Shown here: positions 25,144 through 33,058 of the stretch, piece after piece
Layout: every line of letters begins with the position of its first letter
How positions within the stretch are numbered: position 1 is the stretch's first letter
Position numbers and translations under genes: made by a program
DNA from: Candidatus Uhrbacteria bacterium
GTDB taxonomy: Bacteria > Patescibacteriota > Patescibacteriia > 2-12-FULL-60-25
Length of the DNA stretch: 33,058 bases
Assembly (NCBI GenBank): GCA_018499965.2
Contig: JAHBAS020000027.1
Coordinates: 1-33,058, forward strand
Direction: 5' to 3'
Notes under the pieces: generated by a model
Told to the model about the DNA's origin: nothing
Databases searched by the model: none
The model's input: only the letters and a program-made list of their open reading frames with translations

Positions 25144-27405
25144 CTATTTTTTCTTTGCCGCGTATTTCTTTTTTCTCGTAATCTCTTCGGCTTTCTTTGC
25201 ACGTTTGGCTGCCCGTTCTTCTTTTGATTTCCGGGGCTGTGCGTTTCGAAGCTTGTTGGCGTTTTCGATGAACCGTGCGCCTGAAGTCATTGGGATGCCG
25301 TTTTCGAGGAGTTCTTCTTGCATGCTTTCGAGGATGGCGAGTTCTTTGGCGGTTTGTACCTGGTCGCTCGCTTTGATGGATTCCATGACCGCGACCATTT
25401 GGTTGAGATAGGCTTGCCCGTGGAACGTGAGCTGGTCTGTATGCGGATCGGTCTGGATCTCTTCAAGAATCGTCTCGGCATCGGAGATACCGGCTCGTTT
25501 TGCCGCTTCCACTTCTGCGCTGCGCGCAATCATCTCCGTACCTTCGACCTCCCGTGACCGGAGTTCGTTGATTTGATTCTGGATCGCGGCGTTTTTCGTT
25601 CCTTCGCCTTTCCCTTTTTGCATCTCTGGAACGGTCGGAGCCTCCACATCCTTACTTAAGGCGCTAATCTCTTCGTGGATTGCTTTCCATACGGCGAACA
25701 GATCGGCATCCTTGCCAAGGTGTTCGATCGGCATGTTTCCACCCAGGGTTCCTCGTTCTTTTACGTTCTGTGCCTGTTCATAGGCGTCGTAATACGCCGT
25801 ATTGAATTTCACCTGAGCGTCTCGGAGACTGCCTGTAATTCTTTGAAGGGTCTTCGCATCTATTCTTGAAGCAGGGGAGGTAAAGAGCCGTTTAAGGCCG
25901 GATAGGATTCCTGGTTGCGTATACGTCGTCATCTCAAGTTCCGGGTTCTTCATGCCGGCTTTTTCAAGAGCTTGGACGAGGTCCTCGGAAATCATCACGA
26001 GCGCATCTCGGAGTTTGGTTTTGAGTTTAAGCTGGGATTCGAGCGATGGATCAGTGGTATTCTTTGATCGAATTCGATCGGCCTGCGGGCGTTCAAGGGG
26101 TTTGAGCTGTGTTTTTCCAAGGGCGTGCTTCGCGTCTTCAATGCGATGCAGCGCTTCTGCGATCATTGCCGCTTCCGCCTGGGCGTCTTCGCTGCGAGCC
26201 GGGGAGAGTTGGATGAGGTGAAGGCGTTCTTCAAGCGGGGCGCGGAAAGACGTTTGCAGGTCGTCTTGGATACTTCTGAAGATAAGGTTGTTCACGTGAC
26301 CTATGTCAATCGTGCGCTGGACTTCGTTCAAATAAGAATCGAGAGCGTCCGTTTTCTTTTGTGTCGCTTCAAGCGTGGCAGGAATGTCCATTAAGAGGCG
26401 ACGGTGCTCTTGGGATTCTGGGAATGTTTGGTCAAGGGAGGCTTGGATTTCTGGATCGAACGTATTTCTGGCTTGAATAGCTCGTTCGAGGTCTTCTTTT
26501 GCACGCTTGGCTTGCATGCGATCTTCGGCGATTTCGACTTCGAACAAGTGCTCGCCAGCGTCTTCAAGTTCTTCTTTGGTAATATCTGCAAAATCCGCTC
26601 TGCCTTGGCGTTCTTCTTCGGCTACGTATGGCGCAAAAGCCTTTTCAACGTCTTGTTCAATCTCCGCATCGGTAGCCCCGTGAAAATCTTTTTTCGCTTG
26701 TTCTGTTCTCTCGTTTTCTTCCGCCGCACGCTTAGCGAAGAATGGATCTACGCTTTCCGCAAGCTCGGTATTAGAAATTCCTTCAAGATCGTCCTGAGCC
26801 TTTAGCATCGCTTCTTGTTTCCGAAGGAGGCTTTCGGCTTTTGGATGGCGGCGCGCGTCGTTTTCTGCGGCTACATTGAGCGCGCCTGGTTTTACGACGT
26901 CTGGAAGGATGAGTTCAGCGTCATCGACGGCCGCCCCTTCGTAGTCCCAATCCTCGTCATCTACGCCTTCTTTTGCGTCGAGGTGCACGAGGTCAAGCGC
27001 TTCTCGGGCGGCTTTTTGGGCACGAGCGGCTTTTTCAATGAGTGCGGAATTCGTATCCGCATCGTCTTCCGCACGCAGCTCGTCAATCATCTCCATGAGT
27101 TCGATTTCGGCTTTTCGGAGGTCAAGCACGGTCTTCCAATCCTGTTCCTCATGAATGCCTTTCATGCGCTTTGCGGCAATCAAATGGACATTCGCATTCA
27201 GCGCTTCGATTTGCGCTTCGAATCTTTGTCGCGAGATCTCCCGTTCCCGTTCGGCAATCTTATCGAGGGTCTGTTCCGGATTTGGGTTGGAATAGGCGAG
27301 TCGAATGCGATCTTGATCTGCTGCGGTTGGAAGCGGCGGCGGACCTTTCCGTTCTGGTGCGGGAGGGATACTTGGTTCAATGATGCGTGCGGCGGATTCG
27401 GACAT
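25144..27405 (-). CDS. Large charged coiled-coil protein (unknown)
   Basis: From ATG 27405 the product has 753 residues. An in-frame ATG eight codons upstream lies inside the extended -10 box, so it was rejected. After a Pro-rich start (EPSIPPAPERKGPPPLP) the protein is almost entirely helical, rich in Glu, Ala, Lys and Arg, with several coiled-coil stretches and repeated blocks ending near FFAKRAAEENERTEQAKKDF and APYVAEEERQGRADF. The C-terminus is strongly basic (RKSKEERAAKRAKKAEE, then a lysine-rich end). It has no signal peptide, transmembrane helix or nucleotide-binding motif. A structural or nucleic-acid-binding cytoplasmic role is possible, but no family is recognised. It is monocistronic and convergent with thrS. 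Confidence 0.75.
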   Translation of the reverse strand: MSESAARIIEPSIPPAPERKGPPPLPTAADQDRIRLAYSNPNPEQTLDKIAEREREISRQRFEAQIEALNANVHLIAAKRMKGIHEEQDWKTVLDLRKAEIELMEMIDELRAEDDADTNSALIEKAARAQKAAREALDLVHLDAKEGVDDEDWDYEGAAVDDAELILPDVVKPGALNVAAENDARRHPKAESLLRKQEAMLKAQDDLEGISNTELAESVDPFFAKRAAEENERTEQAKKDFHGATDAEIEQDVEKAFAPYVAEEERQGRADFADITKEELEDAGEHLFEVEIAEDRMQAKRAKEDLERAIQARNTFDPEIQASLDQTFPESQEHRRLLMDIPATLEATQKKTDALDSYLNEVQRTIDIGHVNNLIFRSIQDDLQTSFRAPLEERLHLIQLSPARSEDAQAEAAMIAEALHRIEDAKHALGKTQLKPLERPQADRIRSKNTTDPSLESQLKLKTKLRDALVMISEDLVQALEKAGMKNPELEMTTYTQPGILSGLKRLFTSPASRIDAKTLQRITGSLRDAQVKFNTAYYDAYEQAQNVKERGTLGGNMPIEHLGKDADLFAVWKAIHEEISALSKDVEAPTVPEMQKGKGEGTKNAAIQNQINELRSREVEGTEMIARSAEVEAAKRAGISDAETILEEIQTDPHTDQLTFHGQAYLNQMVAVMESIKASDQVQTAKELAILESMQEELLENGIPMTSGARFIENANKLRNAQPRKSKEERAAKRAKKAEEITRKKKYAAKKK

Positions 27406-27419
27406 AGAGAATTGACGAT

Positions 27420-27428
27420 AGTATAGCA
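27420..27428 (-). promoter_or_regulatory. Extended -10 promoter of the coiled-coil gene
   Basis: The minus strand reads TGCTATACT, 14 bases before the chosen ATG, giving a leader of about eight bases. The upstream in-frame ATG overlaps this box. Confidence 0.7.
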
Positions 27429-27461
27429 TGGAGAGGGGGCGGCCTACGATTCGCTAAATCA

Positions 27462-28716: not shown

Positions 28717-29119
28717 TGGTGGAGATGGGGGGAGTCGCACCCCCGTCCGGTCCAGCCGCACGGCTCCTTCGTTTACAGACATAGTCCGTTCGGATAAGGA
28801 ATTGCACGATAAACGGACAAGAGGGCAATTCCTACCATCGTCGCCAGGTCTATGCGCACAGACGAGGTAGAAGCGCGCATACAAGCCCGCGAAGTGACGA
28901 TCGGATTCCTCGCAGCGGGCGAACAGGGATCGATCGGAGTGGACGTTTCGACTAGGCGAAAGCCACTGCGGTGGAAGGAGCACGGAACGCCGAAGCGACC
29001 GCTTCCTTCACCTTTGTGAAGACGTTGGCAGTTGTCTTGATTCAGGAGGGATTTACGAATGGTCCTGACATTCGGTCTGCAGAAGTCGAACGAACTGTCC
29101 GTCGATGCTCGGCATCCCC
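28717..29119 (-). ncRNA. ssrA: Transfer-messenger RNA (tmRNA)
   Basis: The 403-nt RNA rescues stalled ribosomes with SmpB. The acceptor stem is GGGGATG paired to CATCTCC, with a G3-U70 wobble (the alanine identity element), followed by A and an encoded CCA. The 5' part GAGCATCGACGG matches the conserved tmRNA start. A T-arm of GGGGG/CCCCC with loop TGCGACT lies near the 3' end; G replaces the usual second T of the loop. A pseudoknot stem TCAGGA/TCCTGA precedes the tag. The resume codon is taken as GCC at nucleotide 91 (29029-29027), close to the E. coli position, and the tag ORF runs 25 codons from ANVFTKVK to STAVAFA with stop TAG at 28954-28952. smpB ends 14 bases upstream, so both are probably cotranscribed. 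Confidence 0.93.
28952..29029 (-). other. tmRNA tag-peptide reading frame
   Basis: Starting at the resume codon GCC, 25 codons encode a tag starting ANVFTKVK, with the middle EAVASAFRAP, and ending STAVAFA before TAG. Common tags are about 10-15 residues and end in ALAA or similar. The ending AVAFA is of the hydrophobic, Ala-rich type that ClpXP/ClpAP-like proteases read. The exact resume codon is inferred from spacing and reading frame. Confidence 0.7.
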
Positions 29120-29133
29120 GGAGTGTAGCAGTG

Positions 29134-29568
29134 CTACATGTCAAAGCGCATATCTCTTTCGATATCCCGTTGGCGGAGCGAGGCACGTTTATCGTGCGTC
29201 GTTTTTCCGCGGCAGAGACCGAAAGAGAGCTTGATCTGACGGCCATGAGGATACAGGGAAAAGGGGACTAATGTCAAGCCTTTTTGCTGTATTTTTCCAA
29301 AAAGCCGTTCAAGCTCTTGTTTGTGCATCAAGATTTTGCGATCGTGGTCTGGCTGATAGTCCTTGAGTTTGCCGGCTTTCGAATAGGGTCGAATCGATGC
29401 ATGTCTCAGCCAAAGTGCGCCTTTTTCAAAGCCGAGATAGCTCCCGAGGAGGTTTGCGCCGCCTTCACGAACTGCTTTTGTCTCTTGTCCGGTCAATACG
29501 ATCCCGCCCTCGAAAGATTCGAGGGTTTCATAGCTATACCGAGCCTTTTTATTCTCTGCGAAGTTCAT
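29134..29568 (-). CDS. smpB: SsrA-binding protein SmpB
   Basis: From ATG 29568 the protein has 144 residues, near the family length; the in-frame ATG six codons earlier adds residues unlike the family. Diagnostic motifs are NKKARYSYE, FEGGIVLTGQETKAVREGGANL, SIRPYSKAG, RKILMHKQEL, KGLTLVPFSLY and the C-terminal GKTTHDKR. SmpB brings tmRNA into the A site of stalled ribosomes. It sits directly upstream of ssrA and divergent from the 29636 gene. Confidence 0.97.
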   Translation of the reverse strand: MNFAENKKARYSYETLESFEGGIVLTGQETKAVREGGANLLGSYLGFEKGALWLRHASIRPYSKAGKLKDYQPDHDRKILMHKQELERLFGKIQQKGLTLVPFSLYPHGRQIKLSFGLCRGKTTHDKRASLRQRDIERDMRFDM

Positions 29569-29635
29569 GATGATCGTTGCGTGCACGCATGCTATCCTTT
29601 CACATACGCTTTGTCGATCCCTCTTCGTCCTTACT

Positions 29636-30445
29636 ATGCCAACGCCTCCACCATCCCCGCGACCTCCAACGCCGCATCACAGCGGAGCTCCGATGCCGTC
29701 TCGTCCGTCCCTGCCACCGCCACCTGCTCCAAAGGGAGCGACGCCGGTTCGTCTTGAGGCGATTTCGCAGTATTCATTGAAGCGCCCGAAGGTTGGACGA
29801 AACGCCTATTCATGCCTATTGATGTTTTTGATCGCCTTGATCGTCATTATCGCGGTGGGCGCGTATGTGGTTGCACGCACGGGCTTGGTACGCGTGCCGT
29901 ATTTCTCAAAATTTTATCATCCGATCGCTCCAACCAGGATTGTAGATGCGGAGCCGATCTCGTCTGCGGATTTTGTGAAGCTTGTACAGGAGCGCGTTCT
30001 CGCGGCAAGTACAACACGGGACGGAGCGAAGAATGTCCAGATTACGGAAACGGAAATGACGGGATTGCTTCGTGGAGTGATTGCTGATCGTACGACATCA
30101 ACGAGTGATATGTTGGTCAAACGTATTCAGGCCGTGGTCGGCACGTCTTCCATTGAGCTTTCTGGATCCGTACAAACGAAGGTCGGAGAGGTGAATGCTT
30201 TTGCGCAAATCTTCCCTTCTGTTACATCGAGCAGCAATGTTTCGTTTATTGTTCAAAAGGCGTATCTCGGCGAATTACCAGTGAGCACGGCTTTGGTGGA
30301 ACGAATGCGCCAATCCATATTAACGAATGGCGGAATGTCGTGGGGAGTAAAGCTTGGATCAATGAGCCTGAAAGATATTCATCTTCAAGACGGATCGCTT
30401 CTTCTCACATTCGTTTCATCGACATCCGCCACATCGACGCGATAA
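29636..30445 (+). CDS. Single-pass membrane protein with Pro-rich tail (unknown)
   Basis: From ATG 29636 the product has 269 residues; upstream in-frame starts overlap the divergent smpB start and were not used. Residues 1-35 are Pro-rich (MPTPPPSPRPPTPHH), followed by a basic stretch, a transmembrane helix (about 60-83), and an external domain of about 180 residues. The external part contains ISSADFVKLVQERV and ITETEMTGLLRGVI, then beta-rich segments to DGSLLLTFVS. This resembles YpmS/DUF2140- or DUF2993-like membrane proteins in layout only. Function is unknown; an envelope role is likely. Confidence 0.65.
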   Translation: MPTPPPSPRPPTPHHSGAPMPSRPSLPPPPAPKGATPVRLEAISQYSLKRPKVGRNAYSCLLMFLIALIVIIAVGAYVVARTGLVRVPYFSKFYHPIAPTRIVDAEPISSADFVKLVQERVLAASTTRDGAKNVQITETEMTGLLRGVIADRTTSTSDMLVKRIQAVVGTSSIELSGSVQTKVGEVNAFAQIFPSVTSSSNVSFIVQKAYLGELPVSTALVERMRQSILTNGGMSWGVKLGSMSLKDIHLQDGSLLLTFVSSTSATSTR

Positions 30446-31382: not shown

Positions 31383-32558
31383 ATGAAATGGAACGGTTTT
31401 TCTTCAGATATGCGTTTTGCGCTTATCACCCTTGCGGCTTCGATCGCGGGTGGGGCGTGTGCAGGAGCGATGGCAGGGTGGATGGTTGCGGATTTTCCTG
31501 TGACCGTGTACATCCCTCCCTCTGTATCCGCTTCTTCCACTTCCTCCTCTTCCTCTTCGACTTCGCTCGTTGCTCCGGAAGTAACGTTGGTCAATGTAGA
31601 TCCGGAATCGCCTGAATTGATCGTTCCTCCGGCGTTTACGGAACGTCGAACGAGTCCGGCGGCTACGGTATATCGCACGCCTTCGAAGAATGTGACGATC
31701 TATCGTGATGCGGATGCCTTGGCGCAAGCCGTGGCCGTCACATCTGACGGATGGTACGTGGTTCCTCTTGAGACGGTGAAGAACGTTCCAATCGCGGAAT
31801 TGGTGATTTGGCAGGACGGTCCGCATGCGGTTTCAAAAGGCATTGCAGATGCGCGTGGATCCGTGGCGTTTTTAAAGACGGATATCCATAACGGATCCGC
31901 ACCGAGCTTTGCTCGTTTTCAAGATGTGACGCGCGGTATGGCGGTATGGATTGAGCGTCGTCCAGGAAATTTTGAATCGATGATTATTACGGCATTAGGT
32001 CGTGATATTGAACAGCTACAGGGCGTTTCCAGTGATATTGCTGCCCGACGTGGCTCGCTTTCTGGGATGCTTCGAGCAGGGGACGTCGGATCTCCAGTAT
32101 GGGGGACGAATGGTTCGCTCGTTGGTCTCATGGAGGGGATGCCAGATGGTCACGCGCGCTTTATTCCGTCTTCTGCATGGGCTCCGTCGCTGTTCGGTAT
32201 TTTTTCCGATGGCGTGATCATGCACGCTTCCCTTGGTGTGCAGACCGTGGATTTAGCGAATACGCGTTTGGTTGAGCCAGGGAAAATTCCAACGCGTGGT
32301 GCGCTTATCGTTGGGAATAAAGAGAAAGGCGTTTCCGGCGTCCTTGCGGATTCTCCGGCAGCAAAGGCGGGATTGCGCGATGGTGACGTGATTCAGTTGG
32401 TGGATCGTGATATCCTAGACGGGCGAGCGGATCTCGGAGAGATCTTGGTCCAGTACAAACCAAATGCTTCGGTGAAGCTTACCATCCTTCGTGACGGGTT
32501 AAGCATGGAAATGTCCGTAGCGCTCGGAAGCAAGGTGATGAGCTCCGCAATGAAATAA
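31383..32558 (+). CDS. Membrane-anchored HtrA-like protein with erased catalytic triad, plus PDZ
   Basis: This 391-residue protein has an N-terminal transmembrane helix (about 11-37), a Ser-rich linker, a trypsin-like domain (about 100-275) and a PDZ domain (about 285-385, with SGVLADSPAAKAGLRDGDVIQLVD). Compared with DegS/DegP, all three catalytic positions are changed: the TNxHV segment reads VPLETV (about 127-132), the DLAVLK segment reads SVAFLK (Asp to Ser160), and GNSGG reads GDVGS (Ser to Val235). The fold is otherwise well kept (GSLVGLMEG after the site). A peptide-binding or sensor role in the envelope is more likely than proteolysis. It lies upstream of the Wzz-like gene, separated by a heptad repeat. 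Confidence 0.75.
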   Translation: MKWNGFSSDMRFALITLAASIAGGACAGAMAGWMVADFPVTVYIPPSVSASSTSSSSSSTSLVAPEVTLVNVDPESPELIVPPAFTERRTSPAATVYRTPSKNVTIYRDADALAQAVAVTSDGWYVVPLETVKNVPIAELVIWQDGPHAVSKGIADARGSVAFLKTDIHNGSAPSFARFQDVTRGMAVWIERRPGNFESMIITALGRDIEQLQGVSSDIAARRGSLSGMLRAGDVGSPVWGTNGSLVGLMEGMPDGHARFIPSSAWAPSLFGIFSDGVIMHASLGVQTVDLANTRLVEPGKIPTRGALIVGNKEKGVSGVLADSPAAKAGLRDGDVIQLVDRDILDGRADLGEILVQYKPNASVKLTILRDGLSMEMSVALGSKVMSSAMK

Positions 32559-32575
32559 GAAGGGTTATGGGGAGC

Positions 32576-32630
32576 GGGTAGGGGGTAGCATTTTCTACCC
32601 ACCACCCTCTACCCACCACCCTCTACCCAC
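32576..32630. repeat. Heptad repeat with G-quadruplex pattern on the minus strand
   Basis: GGGTAGGGGGTAG, a short A/T loop, then two exact tandem copies of the 14-mer CTACCCACCACCCT (32595-32622) and a third partial copy. The arms can pair. The minus strand shows GGG TAGA GGG TGGT GGG in series. It ends five bases before the ATG of the Wzz-like gene. Confidence 0.95.
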
Positions 32631-32634
32631 TAAC

Positions 32635-33058
32635 ATGTCTCGTCCAAACTACGTACGTATCGTCGCGCTTTCCTGGCGTCAGGTCGTCCTGATGACGGTG
32701 CTCGGGTGTGTACTCGCTCTCGGATTTTCATTCGTTCAGCCATTTCAGTATTCAAGTACAGTCAAGCTTTTAATCACGCAAACGAATCCGACTGGATTGG
32801 ATCCGTATACCGCGATCAAATCTACGGAACGTATCGCACAGAACTTGAGCGAGATCATTTATACGACCGCATTTTTTTCAGCCGTCGTGGATGATGCGTC
32901 GATTGACATGACGGCGTTTCCAACGGATGAGATCAAGAAGCGTCGCGCCTGGCGGGATACGATCGAAACCGCCGTGGAGCCTGGCACGGGTATCATGACG
33001 ATTGTGGCGTATCATCGGGATCGAAATCAAGCGACGAATTTAGCTGTACGAACCGCGA
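32635..33058 (+). CDS. Wzz/YveK-like polysaccharide chain-length protein (3' end off window)
   Basis: The ATG at 32635 opens a frame of 141 codons that runs off the window. Residues about 14-35 form a transmembrane helix, followed at once by FQYSSTVKLLITQTNPTGLD, the typical beta-strand entry of Wzz/capsular export regulators, and a helical periplasmic-type region (TAIKSTERIAQNLSEIIYT). A second transmembrane helix would be expected beyond the edge, perhaps with a tyrosine kinase domain. The family controls O-antigen or capsule chain length, which fits with the phosphohexomutase upstream. No Shine-Dalgarno sequence precedes it; the C-rich heptad repeat does. Confidence 0.7.
   Translation, partial: MSRPNYVRIVALSWRQVVLMTVLGCVLALGFSFVQPFQYSSTVKLLITQTNPTGLDPYTAIKSTERIAQNLSEIIYTTAFFSAVVDDASIDMTAFPTDEIKKRRAWRDTIETAVEPGTGIMTIVAYHRDRNQATNLAVRTA

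Follow-up and report, generated by a model that had tools for sequence, protein, structure and literature searches.

At the locus studied here, a gene of the HtrA family lies between the genes of a DUF5656-type membrane protein and a Wzz-like protein, and the protein that it encodes, which we call pseudo-HtrA, has all three catalytic positions replaced (Table 1). The window, that is, the whole stretch of 33,058 nucleotides that was analysed, belongs to a Candidatus Uhrbacteria genome of 1.11 Mb in 46 contigs. The relatives referred to below are mostly Candidatus Uhrbacteria and other Patescibacteria; the class of Uhrbacteria we take to be ABY1. The reading frame of pseudo-HtrA contains no internal stop.

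Table 1. Features of the pseudo-HtrA locus, in window coordinates
Feature	Position	Strand	Basis or remark
Single-TM protein, about 240 aa, conserved neighbour	29567..30445	+	start codon uncertain; given ORF overlaps smpB
Partner gene, DUF5656-type integral membrane protein, 253 aa, nine predicted helices	30504..31265	+	profile, model, linkage
Pseudo-HtrA ORF	31383..32558	+	391 aa and stop, ATG start; HtrA fold by profile and model
Predicted membrane-anchor helix, residues 8-36	31404..31490	+	model secondary structure; membrane location inferred from sequence hydrophobicity
Trypsin/HtrA-like domain, residues about 90-275	31650..32207	+	profile matches, model, structural alignment
E130 at catalytic His column	31770..31772	+	alignment columns
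S160 at catalytic Asp column	31860..31862	+	alignment columns
V235 at catalytic Ser column; Ser+1 Gly kept, Ser+2 Gly changed to Ser	32085..32087	+	alignment columns
PDZ domain, residues about 280-382	32220..32528	+	Pfam PDZ_2; conservation; family-specific RDILDG..DLGE stretch
Conserved C-terminal tail, family pattern like TSExLK	32529..32555	+	alignment conservation
Wzz-like (polysaccharide co-polymerase type) protein, conserved neighbour	32635..33057	+	cut by window end

Above cut-off, Pfam finds PDZ_2 alone in pseudo-HtrA (residues 283-381, 35.7 bits); with 13.3 bits, the trypsin profile PF13365 stays under its cut-off of 27.6. A profile of the family, made from 30 sequences (alignment A1, in which some rows have N-termini shortened by the chosen start), matches solved DegP, DegQ, DegS and AlgW chains over positions 108-381 with a best E of 4.5e-26. 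The AlphaFold2 model, computed from a 25-sequence input, has a mean pLDDT of 86.9 and a pTM of 0.75. Its best structural neighbour is the H. pylori HtrA 7xs2 (Z 26.3, 264 residues, 3.4 A), DegP and DegQ reach Z about 25, with residues 84-383 as the aligned region of the model, and DegS and AlgW align with Z about 21. By these profile matches and by the predicted fold, the protein belongs to the HtrA family in fold and descent, a relation that is secure over its entire length, and a single N-terminal transmembrane (TM) anchor followed by one PDZ domain gives it the architecture of DegS. An earlier note, made from the letters of the DNA, had recognised a DegS-like scaffold along the whole length, a PDZ domain and a membrane anchor; profile and model comparisons, the Pfam match and the predicted helix agree with it on each.

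The cluster runs from smpB, divergent from a gene for an AI-2E-like transporter, through the single-TM protein, the DUF5656-type protein and pseudo-HtrA to the Wzz-like protein, and the same order recurs in other families of the class. Over 27 loci, the window included, the DUF5656-type gene is found in 24, the Wzz-like gene in 24, the transporter gene in 21 and the single-TM gene in 20. The window has no transporter gene between smpB (29137-29568) and position 29567; the gene is present at L093, a locus of the same genus. The single-TM neighbour has a weak DUF2140 match in one relative. Where it is complete in relatives, the Wzz-like protein has two TM segments and lacks a kinase domain. Its cut copy in the window scores 23.2 bits, below the Pfam cut-off of 25.5, and the complete copy at L095 scores 28.5 bits, so that the Wzz-like neighbour named in the earlier note is recognised above cut-off in the relative. 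The genes that trail the cluster (for example L104 9793-11400, and those at L095 and L118) are variable, have signal-like N-termini and in several relatives carry MopE-type metal-binding repeats or acidic repeats; they are possible secreted surface proteins and, as such, candidate clients.

The gap at 32560-32635, before the Wzz-like gene, holds C-rich repeats of the TACCCACCACCCTCTACC type. This pattern occurs at 15 places in the genome at up to 2 mismatches and at none when read backwards, the gap folds more stably than its own shuffles (z -3.9), and the repeats look like an intergenic repeat family. Elsewhere in the window a tmRNA gene (28717-29119, minus strand, 100.5 bits) adjoins smpB, an ordinary pair, and a 761-aa ORF rich in charged residues (25144-27429, minus strand) has no Pfam match at E <= 1.

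Loss of the catalytic residues and what is conserved instead

The earlier note had claimed that His, Asp and Ser are all replaced, and the alignment columns confirm this: they are occupied by E130, S160 and V235, the glutamate of what the note had read as ETV being residue 130. The window copy thus lacks the His-Asp-Ser triad of an active HtrA serine protease, and its version of the GNSGGP-type oxyanion and nucleophile motif is GDVGSP. The glycine at Ser+2 is retained in 7 of the 31 aligned pseudo-HtrA rows (30 of the window's family and L032 from another family of the class) vs 54 of 55 intact-triad rows. Among the same 31 rows, 25 have none of the triad residues, 4 have Asp only, 2 have Asp and Ser, and none has His; complete loss of all three is therefore not universal across the family. 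At the Ser column the family rows carry R, P, I, V, L, M, S or Q. Given that the protease-like domain holds no conserved His column in the 31 rows, the sole His-rich column (281, 24/31) lying in the PDZ domain, a rebuilt Ser-His-Asp triad appears unsupported; other His, Asp and Ser residues forming a working triad, which the earlier note had named as evidence against its reading, are not seen in the alignment columns. Among the 46 other rows that do not read His-Asp-Ser (HDS), L079 is an HtrA fragment without the His and Asp region.

Judged from the alignments, the loss is old and conserved across the class. A degenerate orthologue is present in 50 of 57 related genomes, two of these copies being fragments at contig ends, and was not found in the other seven (G008, G017, G024, G033, G037, G046 and G055). 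The copy is degenerate in each of 22 further loci of the class, 3 of which belong to genomes included above, and DUF5656 is adjacent in 21. A first scan, with a single protein as query against genome contigs, returned no relatives. Read directly, 36 of the 57 relatives have an HDS copy, 50 a degenerate copy and 30 both, and a PF13365 search adds more candidate HtrA copies to this count; to say that an active and a dead copy occur together in every related genome would be too strong. Sequencing error or frame damage is ruled out by the open frame and by the same state in relatives, and the degenerate orthologues likewise rule out an oddity unique to the window's genome.

W124, S217, G285 and D343, among others, are invariant in the 30-sequence alignment. 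For the pseudoprotease, mean pairwise identity amounts to 0.34 (protease-like domain), 0.46 (PDZ domain) and 0.43 (tail, last nine residues); the corresponding values for a set of 20 HtrAs with an intact triad from the window's family are 0.55, 0.44 and 0.18. Constraint has thus left the protease domain for the PDZ domain and the C-terminal tail, and it is mainly this shift that speaks for a binding function. The earlier note had spoken of a selected pseudoprotease and had proposed to align homologues from related genomes; with the loss conserved in 50 of 57 relatives, His missing from every row and strong family-specific conservation of other residues, that description is well supported.

The DUF5656 partner, the second HtrA and the history of the loss

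The more constant partner of pseudo-HtrA is the upstream DUF5656-type membrane protein, not the Wzz-like protein. Its model, with nine helices, has a pLDDT of 90.6, and a Foldseek comparison with the PDB gives no match at E <= 0.001 (best 0.15), which is not proof of a new fold. The window copy does not match PF18900 (DUF5656); 16 of 28 aligned relatives do at E <= 0.1. A profile of the membrane protein matches 197 of 379 Patescibacteria genomes, and a narrow profile of the DUF5656-type neighbour matched none of 39 intact-triad class loci. Our literature search found no paper on DUF5656 by that name.

We examined 84 distinct DUF5656 loci, which are the returned loci and the next best rows and not a random sample, several with a flank of 1.5 kb only; at 44 of them an HtrA-family gene comes next on the same strand. 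The catalytic columns of these linked genes read H-D-S in 16 and otherwise in 28, so that one and the same position is occupied by a protease in certain lineages and by a pseudoprotease elsewhere. The remaining 40 examined loci have no adjacent HtrA, and therefore DUF5656 probably also works without it. Upstream genes were identified at four HtrA-less loci, YebC at three and RuvC at one; at L174, L175 and L209, for example, the DUF5656 gene follows RuvC or YebC genes, which is a different context.

The C-termini of the DUF5656-type proteins, compared among 24 near relatives, carry an invariant Trp, followed by Ala, Ile, Leu or Val in 20. An end of this kind would fit a PDZ groove well. Against this, DUF5656 copies that have no HtrA next to them carry the Trp as well, and in the model it follows the last helix by only a few residues, so that it may be a mere membrane-interface residue.

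The window's genome (G000) encodes a second HtrA on contig C18, a 220-aa gene at the contig edge with the GNSGGP motif, its His and Asp positions lying off the contig; a search for an active HtrA paralogue, which the earlier note had suggested, thus yields an active-looking copy in the same genome. Over 36 genomes outside the class, in which genes over the cut-off were counted, another Trypsin_2 gene accompanies a degenerate linked copy in 19 of 20 genomes and an intact linked copy in 3 of 16 (Fisher p 3e-6); counted by family the values are 9/9 vs 3/12 (p 0.001). The 16 intact copies include L129, which reads HDS with an altered motif, and moving it gives 20/21 vs 2/15. At 12 fetched loci the degenerate copy and an intact-motif HtrA (split in two frames at L314) share a strand and are at most a few kb apart. 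In most relatives, as in the window's genome, the two genes are apart. Despite a degenerate copy, no active HtrA was found in G010, G013, G030, G036 and G038, searched with two profiles, or in G088; three of these genomes (G013, G036 and G088) are listed with a completeness of 100%. Because several genomes keep the degenerate copy only, the pseudoprotease is seemingly independent of an active HtrA. The distribution has the look of a duplication after which the copies specialised.

Mapped on the DUF5656 tree of 59 rows, the triad state changes 5 times (4-6 times in bootstraps), and well supported branches make at least 2 of these changes necessary; the HtrA tree of 110 rows, built with the catalytic columns excluded, requires only 2. 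Both trees contain long branches, and the direction from intact to degenerate is assumed, not inferred from them. Repeated loss of the triad in place is likely, the number of losses being uncertain, and with 2 changes on one tree against 5 on the other, many independent losses are unproven. The sister copies L129, which reads HDS, and L166, which reads SES, differ in two triad residues and look like a recent step of loss.

Possible roles of pseudo-HtrA and comparison with known systems

We lean towards reading pseudo-HtrA as a dead, DegS-shaped, non-catalytic subunit of the envelope, placed beside the DUF5656-type protein as the outcome of duplication and division of labour. That a dead HtrA is kept beside the same partner across the class suggests that it binds envelope proteins instead of cutting them. 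The ancestor would have been an active HtrA linked to DUF5656; after duplication the unlinked copy would have kept general proteolysis, and the linked copy would have dropped catalysis and kept binding. The N-terminal helix would export pseudo-HtrA across the membrane, the degenerate protease-like domain would serve as a folded scaffold, and the PDZ groove may bind C-terminal tails of envelope or secreted proteins. The bound state might then be passed to, or held near, the DUF5656-type and Wzz-like proteins, pseudo-HtrA acting as an adaptor or sensor in envelope assembly and not as an enzyme. The Wzz-like genes in the window's class and the LytR-CpsA-Psr genes near intact linked copies agree with such a part in building or monitoring the envelope. 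The earlier note had proposed that the protein may sense or hold envelope proteins, which fits both the shift of conservation to PDZ and tail and the envelope gene context, and is itself a conjecture. Gene neighbourhood alone does not prove a complex of pseudo-HtrA and DUF5656. A wider reading, which we hold tentatively and find plausible if somewhat short of probable, is that DUF5656 and HtrA form an undescribed envelope module of Patescibacteria in which PDZ binding is conserved and proteolysis is optional, having been switched off in place several times after the cutting had passed to a second HtrA. Bolder still is the idea that what the PDZ groove recognises is the C-terminal end of DUF5656, which would make the pair a self-contained two-protein receptor.

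Could pseudo-HtrA instead regulate the active HtrA of its genome, activating or tuning it, perhaps by joining it in mixed oligomers or by handing it substrates? Such a role would accord with the second Trypsin_2 gene in 19 of the 20 genomes with a degenerate linked copy, with the 12 loci that hold an intact-motif HtrA in the same cluster and on the same strand, and with MamO, which is described as activating MamE without a triad of its own (PMC4794232). It is nevertheless unlikely, though to be taken seriously, as the degenerate copy persists in the six genomes named above, where no active HtrA was found, and the two genes are apart in the window's genome and most relatives. An obligatory activator was rejected as the main reading, the degenerate copy standing alone in some genomes. 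Less probable again is a factor for polysaccharide assembly that works chiefly for the Wzz-like neighbour, helping it to control the chain length of a surface glycopolymer or to export the polymer, DUF5656 being part of the machine. The Wzz-like gene is downstream in 24 of 27 loci, also in other families, and LytR-CpsA-Psr genes lie near 11 of the 16 intact linked copies; near degenerate linked copies they are found at 0/28 and near HtrA-less DUF5656 loci at 4/40. LytR-CpsA-Psr proteins are thought to ligate cell-wall glycopolymers. Yet in the phylum sample, which includes many short loci, few linked copies have a Wzz-like gene nearby (4/28 of the degenerate and 1/16 of the intact ones), and the genes tested further downstream are mostly not polysaccharide enzymes.

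That pseudo-HtrA is still an enzyme, with a different active site, seems very improbable. In its favour are the intact fold, the invariant S217 and the 94% conservation of K165 within the family; against it, the protease-like domain has no conserved His, the residue at the Ser column varies, and K165, being also common (71%) in intact-triad HtrAs, is a residue of the fold. We give equally little credence to a decaying duplicate without function. The weaker conservation of the protease-like domain than in intact HtrAs would agree with decay, but retention across the class contradicts it: the frames are open, the same cluster is kept in most of the 57 genomes and in many families, and the PDZ domain and tail are conserved as well as, or better than, in active HtrAs.

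A binding subunit of this kind has relatives among known systems. Pseudo-HtrA shares with DegS and AlgW the N-terminal TM helix, the trypsin-like domain, the single PDZ domain and the modelled fold, and differs from them in lacking the catalytic triad; no link to a sigma factor pathway was noticed. Inactive Deg domains with a mutated triad are described in plants, for example AtDeg16 and the second domain of AtDeg7, the latter reported to take part in trimerisation (PMC3473262). As far as that account goes, these are likewise HtrA-family domains kept in genomes after the triad was mutated, but they are eukaryotic, with another domain order and context and without DUF5656 (PMC3473262).

Few HtrA pseudoproteases of bacteria have been studied; the one that we found, MamO, is the closest precedent. 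In the parts of the MamO account drawn on here, it is an HtrA-derived pseudoprotease of magnetotactic bacteria that works beside the active HtrA MamE, and duplication followed by specialisation is described for the two (PMC4794232). Both proteins have the HtrA fold, lost catalysis and an integral membrane link (a TauE-like domain in MamO), and losses of this kind arose several times (PMC4794232). As with MamO, a lost triad, a kept fold and an active HtrA in the genome go together here, with the exception of G010, G013, G030, G036, G038 and G088. MamO, however, is part of magnetosome gene sets, uses a pair of histidines to bind metal and retains His and Asp, its Ser being replaced by Thr (T225) (PMC4794232); in most pseudo-HtrA copies all three residues are changed. 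Pseudo-HtrA has one PDZ domain and DUF5656 as a separate gene, and a surface di-histidine metal site of the MamO type is not seen in its alignment, where the only His-rich column is the one in the PDZ domain. In the portion of the literature covered by our searches on Patescibacteria and HtrA, CPR and pseudoenzyme, and Uhrbacteria and cell envelope, no description of pseudo-HtrA was found. Because cousins with an intact triad occupy the same genomic position, the L129/L166 pair included, the change from an enzyme to a binding protein should be traceable step by step, and pseudo-HtrA offers a way to approach DUF5656 as well as the construction of the envelope in mostly unculturable bacteria. 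HtrA-derived pseudoproteases such as MamO and the inactive plant Degs are already known; what is new is how old pseudo-HtrA is and how widely it is spread in Patescibacteria, that it has DUF5656 as a partner and that cousins with an intact triad occupy its position elsewhere.
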